20,371 nt of DNA from Candidatus Methylomirabilis sp. (GTDB lineage: Bacteria; DYJV01), in contig DYJV01000018.1 in the NCBI GenBank assembly GCA_020722945.1, forward strand, positions 19,985 through 40,355, in the 5' to 3' direction. The position numbers and the translations under genes were made by a program. This document shows positions 2,919-13,578 of the stretch, piece after piece. Position 1 is the stretch's first letter. Each line of letters begins with the position of its first letter. The notes beneath the pieces are model-generated. The model was not told the DNA's origin, made no database searches, and was given only the letters and a program-made list of their open reading frames with translations.

Positions 2919-2942
2919 CGTTATATACAACTTTATATAACG
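2919..2942. promoter_or_regulatory. ModE-type operator
   Basis: Perfect 9-bp inverted repeat CGTTATATA, 6-base spacer CAACTT, TATATAACG. This matches the known ModE site pattern (CG-T-TATATA, 6-7 bases, TATATA-A-CG). It sits immediately downstream of the -10 box at 2951-2956, covering the expected start of transcription (about 2944), a position suited to repression of the DUF2490-ATPase-binding protein operon. A gene for a ModE-type DNA-binding protein lies directly upstream at 3036-3425. Confidence 0.85.
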
Positions 2943-2950
2943 ACTTGTAT

Positions 2951-2979
2951 ATAATATAACTACGAAAAAATAATGTCAA
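2951..2979 (-). promoter_or_regulatory. Sigma70-type promoter of the DUF2490-ABC operon
   Basis: On the minus strand TTGACA (2974-2979), 17-base spacer, TATTAT (2951-2956). Transcription would start near 2944, at the edge of the ModE-type palindrome, leaving a leader of about 55 bases before the DUF2490 start. Confidence 0.8.
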
Positions 2980-3035: not shown

Positions 3036-3425
3036 TTATTCAAAGCCCTGTTCAAAAATTTTTTGTATTCTCTTTTTAATTTCATAAAATTCTTTAATAA
3101 CAAGTTTTCCCATTTTTGTAAGTTTAGCACCACCACCTTTTTCTCCGCCTATAGAAGTTTCTATCAGAGGTTTAGAACTCAATTGATTCATTTTGTTTAT
3201 TAATTGATATGCGTGTTTGTAAGAAATATTCATTGATTTTGCTGCTTCTGAAATTGATTTATATTTATCTATTCTTTCTAATAGCATAACGCGTCCAGAG
3301 GCAAGAAAAGTTTCATTTTTTAATTCTACCCAAAATCTGATTTTTACTTTCTTATTCTTGCCAATAGTAATCTCAGCATCTGCCCTTGCCTGCCTCCCTT
3401 GTTTGGTACTATTACTTCTGCTCAT
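3036..3425 (-). CDS. ModE-type transcriptional regulator, DNA-binding domain only
   Basis: 129 residues. Residues 41-115 match the N-terminal winged helix of ModE: SISEAAKSMNISYKHAYQLI (57-76), then NKMNQLS, then the wing GGEKGGGAKLT (93-103). The E. coli counterpart has the same SIS-AAK-ISYK-A-INEMNQLS and GGKGGGGAVLT layout. The C-terminal Di-MOP oxyanion-binding region of E. coli ModE is missing, so how this protein would sense molybdate is unclear; short ModE-like proteins are common in archaea and some bacteria. The start at 3425 is supported by TTGCCT-N17-TATATT ending six bases before the ATG, implying a leaderless mRNA. Its probable target is the palindrome at 2919-2942. The first 20 residues are polar and may be unstructured. 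Confidence 0.88.
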   Translation of the reverse strand: MSRSNSTKQGRQARADAEITIGKNKKVKIRFWVELKNETFLASGRVMLLERIDKYKSISEAAKSMNISYKHAYQLINKMNQLSSKPLIETSIGGEKGGGAKLTKMGKLVIKEFYEIKKRIQKIFEQGFE

Positions 3426-3494: not shown

Positions 3495-3548
3495 CCGGGA
3501 GGTAATTTTTTCACAAGAAGGTGCTCTAAAAGAATAAAGTAATCTTTG

Positions 3549-3621
3549 CTTTTTATATTTAAACTGACTTTTTTAATAAAAAATTACCCAACTGACAAGA
3601 GAGTTTTTCTATTTTCATCAT
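3549..3621 (-). pseudogene. 5' fragment of a second ABC ATPase gene
   Basis: Read on the minus strand, this begins ATGATG and encodes MMKIEKLSCQLGNFLL, against MMKIEKLSCRLDNFLL in the intact ATPase at 1005-2186. There are three mismatches in roughly the first 50 bases. A one-base deletion near codon 17-19 then breaks the frame (a stop follows at once), and homology ends after about 24 codons at 3549. This is a truncated, frameshifted copy; no ATPase motif remains. Confidence 0.8.
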
Positions 3622-3710
3622 AATACTTTTATTCTCCTTATGATAAAAAGAGTTCCAAGCGAAACTATAAGGGAAATCAATGTAAATATTACGGCAATAG
3701 AGATAAAAAA
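3618..3710 (-). pseudogene. 3' fragment of an ABC permease gene
   Basis: An open frame ending in TGA that overlaps the duplicated ATPase start (TTATGATG) encodes a hydrophobic segment with a basic tail, ending ISLIVSLGTLFIIRRIKVL. This is what the last transmembrane helix and cytoplasmic tail of a ModB/WtpB-type permease look like, and permease-then-ATPase with overlapping stop and start is the usual order. The frame is closed upstream by TGA at about 3711-3713, and its outer part overlaps the end of the AAA ATPase gene (stop 3689), so the true boundary of homology lies somewhere between 3660 and 3710. Confidence 0.6.
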
Positions 3711-4912
3711 TCAGCAGCAGAGAGGATATGTATAAATCCAGTATTTGTTCGTTTGACCTGATGAAAATCCGGCCTATTTACAATTTGAAAACCTTTTTTA
3801 ATATTTAAAATATTCATAAAATAGGATAAGTTATTTGATGGAGTTGTATCATTATTTTTTACCTCAATTAGCCATAGAGGTTTATTCTTTCTACAGATTA
3901 AGAAATCTACTTCTCTTTTGTTCTTGTCTCGGATAAAATATAATTTTAAAGTATCAAGTCCAAAATCATTAAAAAATTCAACAAATTTTTTTAAATGAAC
4001 AGCTATATAATTTTCAAATTTAATTGCTTCATTTTCAACTTCTGACCAGTCCCACAGATAAATTTTTTTTTCTTTATGTATACCTCTTTTTATAGATTTA
4101 TGATACGGAGGAACAGAAAAAATATAGTATAATCTTTCCAATATATCCATCCAATTTTTTAATGTATTAAAAGTGACTTCAATATCTTCTCTTAATGAAT
4201 TAATTGAAAAAATGGAACCAATTCTTTCAGGTATTAGTTCTATAAGCAATTCAATCAATGATACATTTTTTATATTTGTTAAATCTCTCAAATCCTCATT
4301 AGAGATTAGATTTTTTCTGTTGTTTGACCATCTTAATAGAAAACTTTTATCCTGTTTTAAAAATGGCTCTGGGAAGCCGGAAGTATTAAATAGTGCGTTA
4401 TGAGTAGATACAGCAATTTTAGACGAGGAAATAGAATTAAATATATCATTTAAATTGTCTGGCTGTTTAAATTTTCCAACAAGTTCGCCAACTGTTAATG
4501 GTAATAATTTATACAAAAAGTATCTACCAACAAGACTATCAGCACCTTTCTTATAGATATCCAATTTTGCGCTCCCTGTGATAAAAAAATCTATCTTATC
4601 AGAATATGTATCATATATACCTTTTAGATAATTTTTCCAATTTGGGAATTTATGAATTTCATCAAAGACTACGAGTGGTTTTTCTACCTGATATTTTTCA
4701 ATATCTTCCATAAAAAAATATGGGTCATTTAAAAGTCGTTTTCTAATAACAATATTATCCCAATTGTAATATAACTGTTCGGAATTAAATTTTTTAAGAA
4801 AGAATTTAGATAAAGTTGTTTTTCCAATCTGCCTAGGACCTACTAAGAATAATAATTTTTTGTGGGTAAAATGATATTTGAGCAAAAATCGTATTAACAA
4901 TCGTTCTATCAT
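3689..4912 (-). CDS. AAA ATPase with DUF4143 / PD-(D/E)XK-like C-terminus
   Basis: 407 residues from ATG 4912. Walker A GPRQIGKTT (25-33), Walker B LVVFDEIH (80-87), the sensor stretch FFITGSAKLD (109-118) and GRYFLYKLLPLT (129-140) identify the widespread AAA_14/DUF4143 family. Near the C-terminus REVDFLICRKN followed by LWLIEVKNN has the E-VDF-EVK spacing of a PD-(D/E)XK-like nuclease fold. The cellular role of this family is unresolved; members are often patchily distributed and found beside mobile or rearranged DNA, as here. I prefer ATG 4912 over TTG three codons upstream because a -10-like box ends seven bases before it and no Shine-Dalgarno is visible. Its 3' end overlaps the permease remnant. 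Flanks carry a decayed transporter fragment on one side and inverted repeats on the other, consistent with insertion. Confidence 0.85.
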   Translation of the reverse strand: MIERLLIRFLLKYHFTHKKLLFLVGPRQIGKTTLSKFFLKKFNSEQLYYNWDNIVIRKRLLNDPYFFMEDIEKYQVEKPLVVFDEIHKFPNWKNYLKGIYDTYSDKIDFFITGSAKLDIYKKGADSLVGRYFLYKLLPLTVGELVGKFKQPDNLNDIFNSISSSKIAVSTHNALFNTSGFPEPFLKQDKSFLLRWSNNRKNLISNEDLRDLTNIKNVSLIELLIELIPERIGSIFSINSLREDIEVTFNTLKNWMDILERLYYIFSVPPYHKSIKRGIHKEKKIYLWDWSEVENEAIKFENYIAVHLKKFVEFFNDFGLDTLKLYFIRDKNKREVDFLICRKNKPLWLIEVKNNDTTPSNNLSYFMNILNIKKGFQIVNRPDFHQVKRTNTGFIHILSAADFLSLLP

Positions 4913-8727: not shown

Positions 8728-9385
8728 TTAAAGAATCCTTCTCCTTACCAACAATATCCGTCTTAAAGTTAATTTTTTCATCTTTTTTAAGCAAAATATT
8801 TAAACGGGAAACAACTAAAGACATATCATTACTTCTTTTTTCAACTATTTGTTCAAATATTCTAAATGCAAGAAAAGAAGGGATAGCAACAATAAGGCCA
8901 TTGGCAGTTGTAAGCATAGCTTCCCAGATACCGGCAGCTAAACTCATTACATCTATATCTCCTCCCATAAGGGTAATTGTGTGAAAAACCTTTAGCAAAC
9001 CAGTGATAGTTCCAAGTAATCCAAGCAATGGTGCAATATGTCCTATCTCACTTAAAATCCAGAGATTACTTTCCATTTTTTGAACAAGTCTAGTTCCCGT
9101 TTCTTCAATTATTTCATCAAATGAATTTTTATTATAATTTTCTATGTAAGTTTTAATCAATATCACAACAGGAGAATTTTTATACTTATCAAATATCTTA
9201 TTTTTTAAAATATTTTCTGATTTATTAATAGCAGCAAGAATTTTATCAATTTTATATTTTGTTTTAATATAATAGATTGTCTTTTCAAGAACAACAGCAA
9301 AAGATACAAAATACAAAAATGTTATTACCCAATTTATTTCTTTGCCTCTATTAATTAAATCATACACGCTATTTAAAAAATTCAT
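8714..9385 (-). CDS. exbB: ExbB-type MotA/TolQ/ExbB proton channel
   Basis: 223 residues from ATG 9385. Membrane segments lie at about 18-36, 109-134 and 158-180. The family core is clear: IGHIAPLLGLLGTITGLLKVF and IWEAMLTTANGLIVAIPS, with a cytoplasmic loop between the first two helices. A longer frame extends 28 codons upstream but would run inside feoB; the chosen ATG has GGAGG nine bases upstream and overlaps the feoB stop as ATGA, the typical coupling of this operon. It supplies the pentameric scaffold of the ExbB-ExbD-TonB motor in the inner membrane. Confidence 0.9.
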   Translation of the reverse strand: MNFLNSVYDLINRGKEINWVITFLYFVSFAVVLEKTIYYIKTKYKIDKILAAINKSENILKNKIFDKYKNSPVVILIKTYIENYNKNSFDEIIEETGTRLVQKMESNLWILSEIGHIAPLLGLLGTITGLLKVFHTITLMGGDIDVMSLAAGIWEAMLTTANGLIVAIPSFLAFRIFEQIVEKRSNDMSLVVSRLNILLKKDEKINFKTDIVGKEKDSLNDEI

Positions 9386-11388
9386 TTTATTAACCCTCCA
9401 ATTTGATATATTAAAACAGCTAAAAACCAACCTAAAAATATACTTGTTCCAGTAGATAACAACGCCCATTTCCAGTTTAATTCTCTTTTAATAACGCCTA
9501 TTGTTGCTATACAGGGAACATAAATAAGCGATGTGATTAAGAATGCATAGGCTGATAAAGGTGTAAAATAATGAGGTAATGCTTGTGATAAAGATTCAGC
9601 GCCGCCGAACAGGGTTCCCAGAGTGCCAACAACTACTTCCTTTGCTAAAATTCCAAAAATTAAAGCAACTGCTGCCTGCCAGAAACCAAAACCTGCGGGT
9701 TTTAATAAAGGAGCGAAAAAGGTGCCAATTTGCCCAATCCAACTTTGCTTTGAAGCATATTCTACTCCAACCGGAAGTGAACTTAATATCCAGATAATGA
9801 TAACAGTAAAAAATATAATTGTTCCTGCTTTATAAAGGAAAATTTTACTTTTTAACCACATTTGTAGTAAAGCACTTTTTGTTTGTGGCAATCTATATGG
9901 TGGCAGTTCCATAATAAGAGGAGCTGTCTCCTTTTTAAAAAATAATATCTTAAAGGAATTAGCCACAAATATCGCAATAATTATACCTAACAGATACAAA
10001 GAAAAAACAATTAAGCCTTGATGTTTTGGAAAAAATATAGATGTGAACAATACATAAATAGGAAGTCGTGCTGAACAAGACATATAAGGAATTGCCATTA
10101 TAGTGAGTATTCTATCCTTGCGTGATTCCAGAGTTCTTGTTGCCATAATTGCCGGCACATTGCATCCAAAACCCAATATCATTGGAATAAAAGATTTTCC
10201 ATGCAGTCCAAGCGAATGCATAAATTTATCCATAACAAAAGCAGCCCTTGCCATATATCCGCTATCTTCTAAAAATGCGAGTAATAAAAACATAATCAAA
10301 ATATTAGGAAGAAATACAATAACAGAGCCTACTCCATCAATTATGCCATCTTTAAGAAAAGAGACAACAATACTGGATACTCCAATTTTTATTAGGAGAG
10401 GTGCTATGGCATTCCCCAGCCAGTCAAAAAATTGACCAATCCAATCAACAAGAGGGCTCCCAACAGTAAAAACAATCTGGAAAGTTAAGTATATTAAAAA
10501 AAGAAAAATTGGTATGCCCAAGAATTTATTAAGAACTACGCTATCTATCTTATCAGATATTTCTCGTCCAATCTTTTTCTTTCTTGTTAATATTTCATTG
10601 ACTAAACCTTTAATATAACCGTATCTATTATCTGCTATAATAGACAGAATGTCATCATTATATTTTTTTTCAATTTTATTCACTTCAGGGAGAGCAATGT
10701 TTTCTATATCAGTTAGATTATACACCTTTTTTGCCATATTAAAGAGATATTGGTCCCCTTCTAAAAGAGTAATAGCCAGCCATCTTTCATTGGCAGGCAT
10801 ATTTTGAGATGGAAATTTTGAAATAATATTTTTAATTGCCTCTTCAATTTCTTTATTATATTTTACTTCAAAGTTTGAAACCCTCTCTTTCTTTGCAGCA
10901 GTAGCAATCGCTTTTTTTAATTGTTCAGTGTTCCTATTCTTATTTGCTATTGTTTTTACCACAGGAACATCCAATATTAATGAAAGCACCTTCTCGTTAA
11001 TATTAATTCCTTTTTTATCAGCCACATCAATCATATTTAAATTTAAAACAAGATTTACTCCCATTTCTAAGAGTTGTAAAGCCAGATAAAAATTTCTCTC
11101 AAAATTTGAAGAATCAATAACAGAGACAACAACATCTGGTTTCTCCTGAATAAGGAATTCTCTTGCTATTTTTTCATCAATTGATGATGCAGACAAAGAA
11201 TATATGCCTGGTAAGTCTATTACTTTAAATTCAATCCCCTCATAGAAAAAACTTCCTTCTTTTTTTTCAACTGTAACTCCTGGCCAATTTCCTACATGCT
11301 GATTAGCACCTGTAAGATTGTTAAAAATAGAAGTTTTTCCACTATTAGGATTGCCAGCCAGTGCTATTGTTATTTTATTATTTTTCAT
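9382..11388 (-). CDS. feoB: Ferrous iron transporter FeoB
   Basis: 668 residues, normal FeoB length. The N-terminal GTPase domain has G1 GNPNSGKT (12-19), the G2 region VGNWPGVTVE (32-41), G3 DLPG (58-61) and G4 NMID (118-121). The membrane domain has the two gate motifs, GFGCNVPAIMATRT and PYMSCSARLPIY, with conserved Cys residues, and later LAKEVVVGTLGTLF and YVPCIATIGVIKRE. It imports Fe(II) across the inner membrane. A longer frame begins 17 codons upstream, but ATG 11388 has GGAG six bases upstream and gives the normal FeoB N-terminus. It overlaps feoA by 11 bases and exbB by 4. No FeoC is present. Confidence 0.96.
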   Translation of the reverse strand: MKNNKITIALAGNPNSGKTSIFNNLTGANQHVGNWPGVTVEKKEGSFFYEGIEFKVIDLPGIYSLSASSIDEKIAREFLIQEKPDVVVSVIDSSNFERNFYLALQLLEMGVNLVLNLNMIDVADKKGININEKVLSLILDVPVVKTIANKNRNTEQLKKAIATAAKKERVSNFEVKYNKEIEEAIKNIISKFPSQNMPANERWLAITLLEGDQYLFNMAKKVYNLTDIENIALPEVNKIEKKYNDDILSIIADNRYGYIKGLVNEILTRKKKIGREISDKIDSVVLNKFLGIPIFLFLIYLTFQIVFTVGSPLVDWIGQFFDWLGNAIAPLLIKIGVSSIVVSFLKDGIIDGVGSVIVFLPNILIMFLLLAFLEDSGYMARAAFVMDKFMHSLGLHGKSFIPMILGFGCNVPAIMATRTLESRKDRILTIMAIPYMSCSARLPIYVLFTSIFFPKHQGLIVFSLYLLGIIIAIFVANSFKILFFKKETAPLIMELPPYRLPQTKSALLQMWLKSKIFLYKAGTIIFFTVIIIWILSSLPVGVEYASKQSWIGQIGTFFAPLLKPAGFGFWQAAVALIFGILAKEVVVGTLGTLFGGAESLSQALPHYFTPLSAYAFLITSLIYVPCIATIGVIKRELNWKWALLSTGTSIFLGWFLAVLIYQIGGLIK

Positions 11389-11626
11389 TTGCCTCTCCAT
11401 CTGAAATAATTTCCACAAAAATTCGTTTTGCCATGCCAACGCCTATACCAATTTTTAAGTCATCTTTTTGGACAATTATAGGACCTATTCCTGTATTTTG
11501 AGCAACTATCCAAATATTATTTGGGACTAATCCTAAATCTAAAGTTTTTTGTAACAAGCCACGACCACCTTCTATTTTAATTATTTTAAATTTATCACCG
11601 CTATTAAGTAATCTTAATGGAATCAT
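11378..11626 (-). CDS. feoA: FeoA, small SH3-like partner of FeoB
   Basis: 82 residues with the FeoA core: LRLLNSGDKFKIIKIEGGRGLLQKTLDLGLVPNN, a hydrophobic middle, then VGMAKRIFVEI at the C-terminus. FeoA is a small cytoplasmic protein needed for FeoB activity in studied systems, with an SH3-like fold. The start ATG overlaps the regulator stop (ATGA, 11623-11626), and its 3' end overlaps feoB by 11 bases, so the three are translationally coupled. Confidence 0.92.
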   Translation of the reverse strand: MIPLRLLNSGDKFKIIKIEGGRGLLQKTLDLGLVPNNIWIVAQNTGIGPIIVQKDDLKIGIGVGMAKRIFVEIISDGEANEK

Positions 11627-12297
11627 TTTTTCACCTTTTCAACTATTACTGTTTTGGCTTCATCTTGTCTTAAACTTAGATGATAATCTTTGATTTTAAT
11701 ATCAATGGGCCCTCCAAAAGGCGCAATCTTTTCAACTGAAAATTTTTCATTTGTAGAAAGCCCCATACTGAGCAACTTTTGTTTAATTGAAATTGGAGCA
11801 TCAATTTTTTTTATAATACCTGTTTCTCCGTTTTTTAATTCATTTAATAAATATACTCCTTCTATTTTTTTTGAAATGTGTTTGCTCTTTTTGAATTTTT
11901 TAAAATCATCAATTGAAAAATCGCTCTTTTGTAGATAACTAATAAAAGATATAAGAGATAAATAAGTTTCATTGGAAATATAATGTTCTATATTACAGGC
12001 GTCTTTTGCTGCAATATCTTCAGAGACGCCTAAAAACCTTGCAAAAAAATTGCTTAATGTTTTATGTTTTTCATATACCTCCTGAGCAAGGGTAAGACCT
12101 TTTTCTGTTAGTTCAATATAGCCATATTTTTCGTGATTAATAAGGCCCTTTTTTACCAACGTTTTTAATGCTTGATTAACAGACGAAACTTTGTAATTAA
12201 AATATTTCATTAAATCTTTTACCCGGACTATTTTAGAGTCAAGTCCAATTACCCATATAGCTTCAAGATAGTCCTCTAAACTTTGTGTTAATTCCAT
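11623..12297 (-). CDS. DtxR/MntR-family metal-dependent repressor with FeoA-like C-terminal domain
   Basis: 224 residues. An N-terminal winged helix (about 1-70; recognition segment SSVNQALKTLVKKG), a metal-binding and dimerisation domain (about 70-140) and a C-terminal SH3/FeoA-like domain (about 150-222). Putative metal ligands are Asp9, Glu12, His78, Cys101, Glu104 and His105. They align with MntR Asp8, Glu11, His77, Glu99, Glu102 and His103, except that Cys101 replaces Glu99, as in DtxR/IdeR (Cys102). The Cys points to iron, the Asp9 is MntR-like, so specificity is mixed on sequence alone. Heading the feoAB-exbBD-tonB operon supports an iron-responsive repressor. AAAGGAG lies upstream of the ATG, and the promoter carries a dyad likely to be its own operator. 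Confidence 0.92.
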   Translation of the reverse strand: MELTQSLEDYLEAIWVIGLDSKIVRVKDLMKYFNYKVSSVNQALKTLVKKGLINHEKYGYIELTEKGLTLAQEVYEKHKTLSNFFARFLGVSEDIAAKDACNIEHYISNETYLSLISFISYLQKSDFSIDDFKKFKKSKHISKKIEGVYLLNELKNGETGIIKKIDAPISIKQKLLSMGLSTNEKFSVEKIAPFGGPIDIKIKDYHLSLRQDEAKTVIVEKVKK

Positions 12298-12467: not shown

Positions 12468-12495
12468 TTGTCTTATGAAAATATATGTATATATT
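12468..12495 (+). promoter_or_regulatory. Promoter of the OprB-like porin, leaderless
   Basis: TTGTCT (12468-12473), 16-base spacer, TATATT (12490-12495). The -10 box ends nine bases before ATG 12505, and no Shine-Dalgarno is present. This also argues against the ATG at 12475, which lies within the promoter. Confidence 0.5.
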
Positions 12496-12504
12496 TTCAC
12501 TATT

Positions 12505-13578
12505 ATGAAAAATATTATCATTATATTAATTTCTATCTTTACACTAATAACAACAGCATATCCAGATTTTAATACAGAGATATGGAATGGATTACAACTC
12601 AATCATCCGACTTACTCTTCTGTTGCCTCAACAATAGGGCGAATCAGGTTTAATGGTATGTTAAATACTTTTCAAAAAAATATTGATTTCAATTTTCGGC
12701 TGGCAATATCTTATGGAAAAGATTATTTTGGTTCACAGTCACAGATGACCCCTGCAAATGATATTGCTGGCGATTCAAAAACTCTCAAATTAGACACAGC
12801 ATATTTTAGTTTTAAATACAGCCGGCTTAAAATATTTGTAGGGTTAATAGATTTAATTAGTGTAAACAATTATAATGGTTTTTTTAATATCCATTATACT
12901 GGAAATGAAAATGATGGTTTCTTTTCAACACACTTTCTCAGACTTCTTGCCAATAATGGTCTTGATAATTATTACTATCAATCCATCCCAGCAGTTGTTT
13001 TTAATATAGATGTTTTAAGAAATGTTATGCTTAAATTTAGTGTAACATCAGGGCTTTCAACAACACATCTGTTTGTGCGTAACAGTTTTCCTGTTGAACT
13101 TGAATTTGATAACAAGGATATACACTTATCGTTAAATTCAGGATTTGTTGACGCAGATACATCAGGTGTGCATAAAGTCTCTCCTTCATTTGGCGTAATA
13201 TTTGAAAAGTATATAATGAGCAAATTTTATTTTTTCACAAAATATAGCAGAGTTGAAAAAGATATTAAAACATTCAGAACACCTGATATTGTTATAACTG
13301 ATAATTACAAAGTTGCAGAAGAGTTTTCACCATTTAAAGAGCATATTGCATTAGGAATAGCAAAGCATAAAAAAGATTTTGGATTTGGTATTGGTTATAG
13401 TAGTTTAAAATCTTTTGGGAAGAGTTTGCCTGAACAGATAATAGAGATTTTTGTAAGGACCAAAGCATTTAAGATATTTGAATTTTCCCCTGATTTTCAG
13501 TATATCCTAAACCCCGATGGTGGCGATAGATTCAAATATATGTGGATAGCAGGCATAAGATTTTATATAAAACTTTGA
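12505..13578 (+). CDS. OprB-like outer-membrane porin
   Basis: 357 residues. From ATG 12505 the protein begins with a classic signal peptide (basic start, poly-Ile core, TTA-YP near residue 20). The mature part is an aromatic-rich barrel. The C-terminus, FSPDFQYILNPDGGDRF followed by MWIAGIRFYIKL, closely follows the end of carbohydrate-selective OprB porins (PD-Q-I-NPGG then GLR). The start 30 bases upstream (12475) would put ten extra residues before the signal peptide and falls within the probable promoter. The gene diverges from the DtxR-family repressor; whether it is metal-regulated is unknown. Sugar transport is the family function; substrate cannot be told. Confidence 0.65.
   Translation: MKNIIIILISIFTLITTAYPDFNTEIWNGLQLNHPTYSSVASTIGRIRFNGMLNTFQKNIDFNFRLAISYGKDYFGSQSQMTPANDIAGDSKTLKLDTAYFSFKYSRLKIFVGLIDLISVNNYNGFFNIHYTGNENDGFFSTHFLRLLANNGLDNYYYQSIPAVVFNIDVLRNVMLKFSVTSGLSTTHLFVRNSFPVELEFDNKDIHLSLNSGFVDADTSGVHKVSPSFGVIFEKYIMSKFYFFTKYSRVEKDIKTFRTPDIVITDNYKVAEEFSPFKEHIALGIAKHKKDFGFGIGYSSLKSFGKSLPEQIIEIFVRTKAFKIFEFSPDFQYILNPDGGDRFKYMWIAGIRFYIKL

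Follow-up and report, generated by a model that had tools for sequence, protein, structure and literature searches.

A putative ModE-controlled molybdate or tungstate import operon headed by a DUF2490 outer-membrane barrel gene in Candidatus Methylomirabilis sp.

In the stretch of Candidatus Methylomirabilis sp. DNA analyzed here (20,371 nucleotides; hereafter, the window), an exact ModE-type inverted repeat lies at the promoter of a gene for a DUF2490 outer-membrane barrel. This gene is not solitary but is the first of a four-gene ABC-importer set that extends past the left edge of the window. We consider it probable that the set is a molybdate and/or tungstate import operon repressed by ModE, and that DUF2490 proteins are oxyanion channels, each paired with the importer of its own operon.

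In the scheme that we infer from these data, a ModE-type protein would bind the palindrome at the start site when metal is sufficient and would block transcription. When metal is scarce, the DUF2490 barrel would be made and, as an anion-selective channel, would pass the oxyanion over the outer membrane. The NMT1-type binding protein, the SsuC-type permease and the WtpC-like ATPase would then move it through the inner membrane. By extension, a DUF2490 protein would act as the oxyanion channel for whichever importer its operon encodes, be it for phosphate, molybdate or tungstate. Computation supports the operator sequence, the order of the genes, their recurrence, the enrichment of importer neighbours, the fold as predicted and the conservation of basic residues; that ModE binds and represses, that the barrel is a pore and which substrate it passes are inferences.

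The operator, its promoter and the regulator

The original prediction had described an exact ModE-type inverted repeat preceded by TTGACA-N17-TATTAT, with a ModE winged-helix gene upstream and a DUF2490 barrel gene behind it, and our analysis bears out all four elements. The operator, CGTTATATA-N6-TATATAACG, occupies positions 2919–2942 (no strand assigned), beginning close to the predicted start site. Its sequence, CGTTATATACAACTTTATATAACG, forms an exact inverted repeat of 9 bp around a 6-bp spacer; binding of ModE to it is inferred. The ModE consensus is ATCGNTATATA-N6-TATATANCGAT (PMC545781), and the window palindrome equals the core of it. Compared with CGNTATATA-N6-TATATANCG, the site at the promoter shows 0 mismatches (18/18 defined bases). 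It is the sole match in the window at ≤3 mismatches, for 0.07 expected from shuffles, and the exact palindrome is unique in the 2.5 Mb genome, where no other site comes closer than 3 mismatches. The nearest one (C79) falls within what looks like a lysozyme gene, on a contig of phage-like character, and was dropped. A reversed control pattern gave 0 matches at ≤2 mismatches in the whole genome.

On the minus strand, the −35 element TTGACA (2974–2979) and the −10 element TATTAT (2951–2956), with a spacer of 17 nt, score an 11/12 promoter match. Because shuffles of the same A+T-rich region yield about 4 promoter-like matches, the promoter alone is weak evidence. The −10 element and the palindrome are 8 nt apart, and the ATG of the DUF2490 gene is found 52 bp from the first base of the palindrome.

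The regulator gene is located upstream on the same strand (3036–3425, minus) and encodes a protein of 129 aa. This protein carries a ModE winged-helix DNA-binding domain, as judged from its matches to TIGR00637 (82.6 bits, E 1.6e-23, under the model's cut-off of 98.5) and to the ModE structure 1b9m in the PDB (E 6.6e-15). Only the N-terminal part of ModE was matched, and the C-terminal molybdate-binding domain is absent from the 129-aa protein. From its sequence, we class it as a single-domain ModE-type regulator only and not as a full-length, molybdate-sensing ModE; because the domain is missing, sensing of molybdenum or tungsten by this protein is unexplained. Neither this absence nor the four-gene importer operon figured in the original prediction. 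Single-domain ModE proteins occur in Desulfovibrio, where they accompany a different motif (PMC545781), and, going by the title of a reference in PMC4139814, a ModE-like protein in C. jejuni governs distinct transporters for molybdenum and tungsten. Literature searches on single-domain ModE and outer-membrane molybdate uptake turned up no mention of a link to DUF2490. The same genome encodes a second single-domain ModE-like protein, of 118 aa (L006 1477–1833, G000:C160), and no palindrome within 6 mismatches was found in the 2 kb around its gene.

The importer and its substrate

The DUF2490 gene (2228–2890, minus) encodes a barrel of 220 aa, which Pfam assigns to PF10677 (E 1.4e-23; 84.1 bits for a gathering cut-off of 29.8; profile positions 1–184 of 186). 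It is followed in the same direction, after a gap of 41 bp, by a gene for an ABC ATPase (1005–2186, minus) whose best match is WtpC, at 294.6 bits and below the equivalog cut-off of 440 (NF040840). After a further 2 bp comes the gene for an NMT1/SsuA-type substrate-binding lipoprotein (1–1002, minus; PF13379, with TIGR01728 below cut-off). The gene for an SsuC-type permease is located outside the window, 316 bp downstream of the binding-protein gene (G000:C168:18889–19668). The lipoprotein does not fall in the ModA, WtpA or TupA families. Putative control by ModE would extend to a whole ABC importer operon that begins with the DUF2490 gene. A palindromic repeat, TCATTCCTGCGAATGCAGGAATC, is present at 1346–1368, in frame within the C-terminal part of the ATPase gene.

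Upstream of modE, a degenerate remnant of the start of a wtpC copy (3525–3720, minus) shares 84% DNA identity over 135 bp with the start of the ATPase gene. It is preceded by a hydrophobic open frame which, read by eye from its translation, resembles the end of a wtpB-type permease. A wtp-type system thus seems to have been present at the locus in the past.

The case for molybdenum or tungsten at the window operon is built on its operator, the neighbouring modE and the WtpC-like ATPase. Against it counts the binding protein, since the substrates mainly associated with the NMT1/SsuA family are sulfonate, taurine and nitrate, and no molybdate- or tungstate-binding member of it is known to us. 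Exact sites are also present in Deltaproteobacterium JPMR_maxbin.018, at two loci (L073 and L107) before a DUF364–NMT1 binding protein–SsuC permease set. Identity to the window proteins is 47% for the binding protein and 65% for the permease. At these loci, the sites are in tandem (L073 1395–1444, L107 2231–2280), each exact one being accompanied, 26 bp further on, by another with 1 mismatch; the palindromes directly follow TTGACA and lie between −35 and −10. A transporter of the NMT1 type is therefore linked to ModE elsewhere too, at a position implying repression.

The same family membership also fits another reading, which we hold to be possible though clearly less probable, namely that the operon imports a molybdoenzyme-linked substrate such as nitrate or sulfonate, that ModE couples its expression to the molybdenum supply and that DUF2490 is a porin for that anion. 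In favour of it are the NMT1/SsuA/NrtA type of the binding protein, the activation of molybdoenzyme genes by ModE in E. coli and, in this genome, a Nap-like gene set that includes a molybdopterin oxidoreductase whose leader is twin-arginine-like. However, a periplasmic reductase has no need of nitrate import, and the ATPase is WtpC-like, with a wtpC remnant kept at the locus. Moreover, an operator at or after the start site, as in the window, or between −35 and −10, as in JPMR, occupies a position of repression, as for modABC. We retain import of molybdate and/or tungstate as the preferred reading.

Three molybdopterin oxidoreductase genes are present in the genome, which also speaks for this reading. 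A molybdopterin oxidoreductase gene with one in-frame TGA lies inside a Nuo-like cluster (L259 6068–8755, G000:C110) and may encode a selenocysteine formate dehydrogenase. An SBP_bac_11 binding protein resembling WtpA is also encoded (L258 6150–7130, G000:C118), with no wtpBC in the stretch read; its gene adjoins those of a helix-turn-helix protein and of a large frame resembling a TonB-dependent receptor. In the window itself, an OprB-family barrel gene (12475–13578, plus) is divergent from genes for a DtxR–FeoA fusion, feoA and feoB, then ExbB/ExbD/TonB (9382–12297, minus). As an OprB-type porin with feoAB is described in G. sulfurreducens (PMC545781), this may be another porin–importer pairing.

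DUF2490 genes in other genomes

Further DUF2490 genes were collected by profile in two genome sets, and the neighbours of 34 above-cut-off genes were read from open frames and profile matches, not all in full. Eight genomes have pst neighbours (G357, G285, G401, G412, G398, G204, G406 and G413), three have mod neighbours (G386, G420 and G416), G388 has tupABC, and NMT1-type neighbours occur in G102 and in the window genome (G000). In G174, the gene lies beside an ABC ATPase–permease pair that looks Phn-like, and in G389 the order is molybdoenzyme, TorD-type chaperone, mobB, DUF2490 and mobA. At about half of these loci, within the limits of this reading, no recognizable transporter neighbour was found. 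An automated tblastn test detected partners at 11/34 DUF2490 loci versus 0/30 control barrels (Fisher p 0.0005). Because the tblastn references came from DUF2490 loci, each locus's own references were left out. The 30 controls, PF13505 barrels, were drawn from Ca. Euphemobacter relatives; the two sets share some genomes and were not matched one to one. In a tree of 29 DUF2490 proteins, at least 4 changes of the molybdenum/tungsten label are needed on well-supported branches, and proteins that are closely related can have either Mod or Pst as partner. Across phyla, DUF2490 genes occur in operons for oxyanion import or molybdenum, and in other bacteria such barrels recur as the leading gene of operons that import molybdate, tungstate or phosphate, which makes it probable that the family consists of oxyanion channels.

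The AlphaFold model of the window protein (pLDDT 72.8) combines a signal helix with a barrel of 12 strands, although it was confident in only one run of five and used a two-sequence alignment. A second model, of the Ca. Euphemobacter protein, had low confidence (59.8). VIA-align ranked KdgM first (Z 16.0, 2.2 Å over 156), with NanC at Z 15.3, and autotransporter barrels scored nearly as high as KdgM. Nine positions on the strands (R57, R105, K113, R124, R126, R130, R139, R141 and R176) are basic in 20–28 of 29 DUF2490 proteins, and those within one strand are spaced by an even number of residues. Such spacing is the pattern of residues that face one side; it is read from sequence, and a pore-facing orientation has not been established on coordinates. 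The NanC pore is lined by strings of basic residues, and OprP likewise uses basic residues for anions (PMC3706956).

These data also bear on the view that DUF2490 is a general outer-membrane barrel, with some role in structure, lipids or efflux, and is only incidentally linked to oxyanion importers. Roughly half of the loci lack a transporter neighbour, and BT3499 of Bacteroides changes with iron (PMC10434189), both of which would fit a general barrel. We nevertheless find this view unlikely, given the 11/34 versus 0/30 partner counts, with partners that are nearly all oxyanion importers, the repeated label changes with close relatives paired with Mod or Pst, and the basic residues conserved on the strands.

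The original prediction called for a search for the palindrome upstream of DUF2490 genes in related genomes. Scanning GTDB contigs for the exact palindrome alone located at least 119 stretches, and ModE, ModA or ModB homologues were present at 57 loci among the matches listed. One of these stretches (L090), from Ca. Euphemobacter frigidus (Auribacterota), has the order single-domain ModE, exact site, DUF2490, ModA, ModB and WtpC/ModC-like ATPase. The ModE protein, of 118 aa, is similar to the window regulator, ModA scores 97.1 bits for a cut-off of 62.5, and a second site with 2 mismatches lies just before modE. In G420, a ModE-consensus site, CGATATATA-N6-TATATATCG, is located directly upstream of DUF2490, followed by modABC; in G416, such a site is again directly upstream of DUF2490, with modABC about 3 kb off on the same strand. 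Overall, 4/29 DUF2490 upstream regions have a site that departs from CGNTATATA-N6-TATATANCG at no more than 2 positions, versus 0.005 in shuffles, and the three site-bearing genomes besides that of the window all have modABC neighbourhoods. Among the 29 upstream regions, no ModE site was found at a pst-linked DUF2490 gene, which serves as a specificity control. The only genome of the same order that was compared (G001) has neither DUF2490 nor the palindrome. Independent recurrence in L090, G420 and G416 supports a link between ModE-type control and DUF2490, with binding and regulation themselves inferred.

A chance palindrome is rejected on the strength of the shuffles, the genome-wide uniqueness and this recurrence, and we regard it as very improbable that the site is accidental, vestigial or another regulator's, with a short ModE-like protein that does not respond to molybdenum: the regulator lacks the molybdate-binding domain and scores under the TIGR00637 cut-off, and the Desulfovibrio proteins of this kind accompany a different motif (PMC545781), but the match is exact at 18/18 defined bases, modE is adjacent, and Ca. 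Euphemobacter repeats the arrangement with a modABC partner.

What weakens the reading of a ModE-repressed molybdate and/or tungstate import operon is the lack of any experiment, the DUF2490 loci without a recognizable transporter and the regulator without a metal-binding domain. For a wider claim, we see the balance as even: that DUF2490 proteins (TC 1.B.81) are cross-phylum, arginine-lined, 12-strand oxyanion channels that switch ABC partners (phosphate, molybdate, tungstate and related), and that the NMT1/SsuC-type importer is a further class of ModE-controlled molybdate/tungstate uptake beside Mod, Wtp and Tup.

Comparison with known systems

General porins are usually taken to account for the passage of molybdate and tungstate through the outer membrane. 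If our reading is true, a metal-regulated, operon-encoded anion channel would give this step a specific gene. A porin family described as lacking an established function would also gain a role, and selectivity for phosphate, molybdate or tungstate could be compared among close relatives with different importers.

As in the E. coli ModE regulon, the window operator fits the ModE consensus over its core and is located at the promoter of an uptake operon, and the winged helix of the regulator can be aligned to 1b9m. Unlike E. coli ModE, the window regulator is a DNA-binding domain only, and unlike modABCD, the operon has an outer-membrane barrel gene in first place, and its importer is of the NMT1 type, not of the ModA type. 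With ModABC, WtpABC and TupABC, it shares an ATPase that is WtpC-like, though below the equivalog cut-off, and a ModE-type operator, and DUF2490 precedes modABC and tupABC elsewhere, whereas both its binding protein and its permease belong to the sulfonate/taurine (SsuAC) type.

The role that we propose resembles that of OprP, the phosphate porin of Pseudomonas, a dedicated channel for a scarce oxyanion with a ladder of basic residues (PMC3706956). OprP, however, is a 16-strand trimer of another family, whereas DUF2490 is modelled with about 12 strands at moderate confidence, and no sequence relation between the two was detectable. The acidic-sugar porins KdgM and NanC, with 12 strands, are the best structural match to the DUF2490 model, but they belong to another Pfam family, with about 10% identity, and the operon partners of DUF2490 are oxyanion importers; Pfam gives only DUF2490 for the window barrel and not the KdgM family, so that the likeness is in fold only. 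By PF10677, the window barrel is a member of the DUF2490 family, TC 1.B.81, a putative porin family whose functions were not established as of 2016 (PMC4827864) and for which the operon context found here suggests oxyanions.
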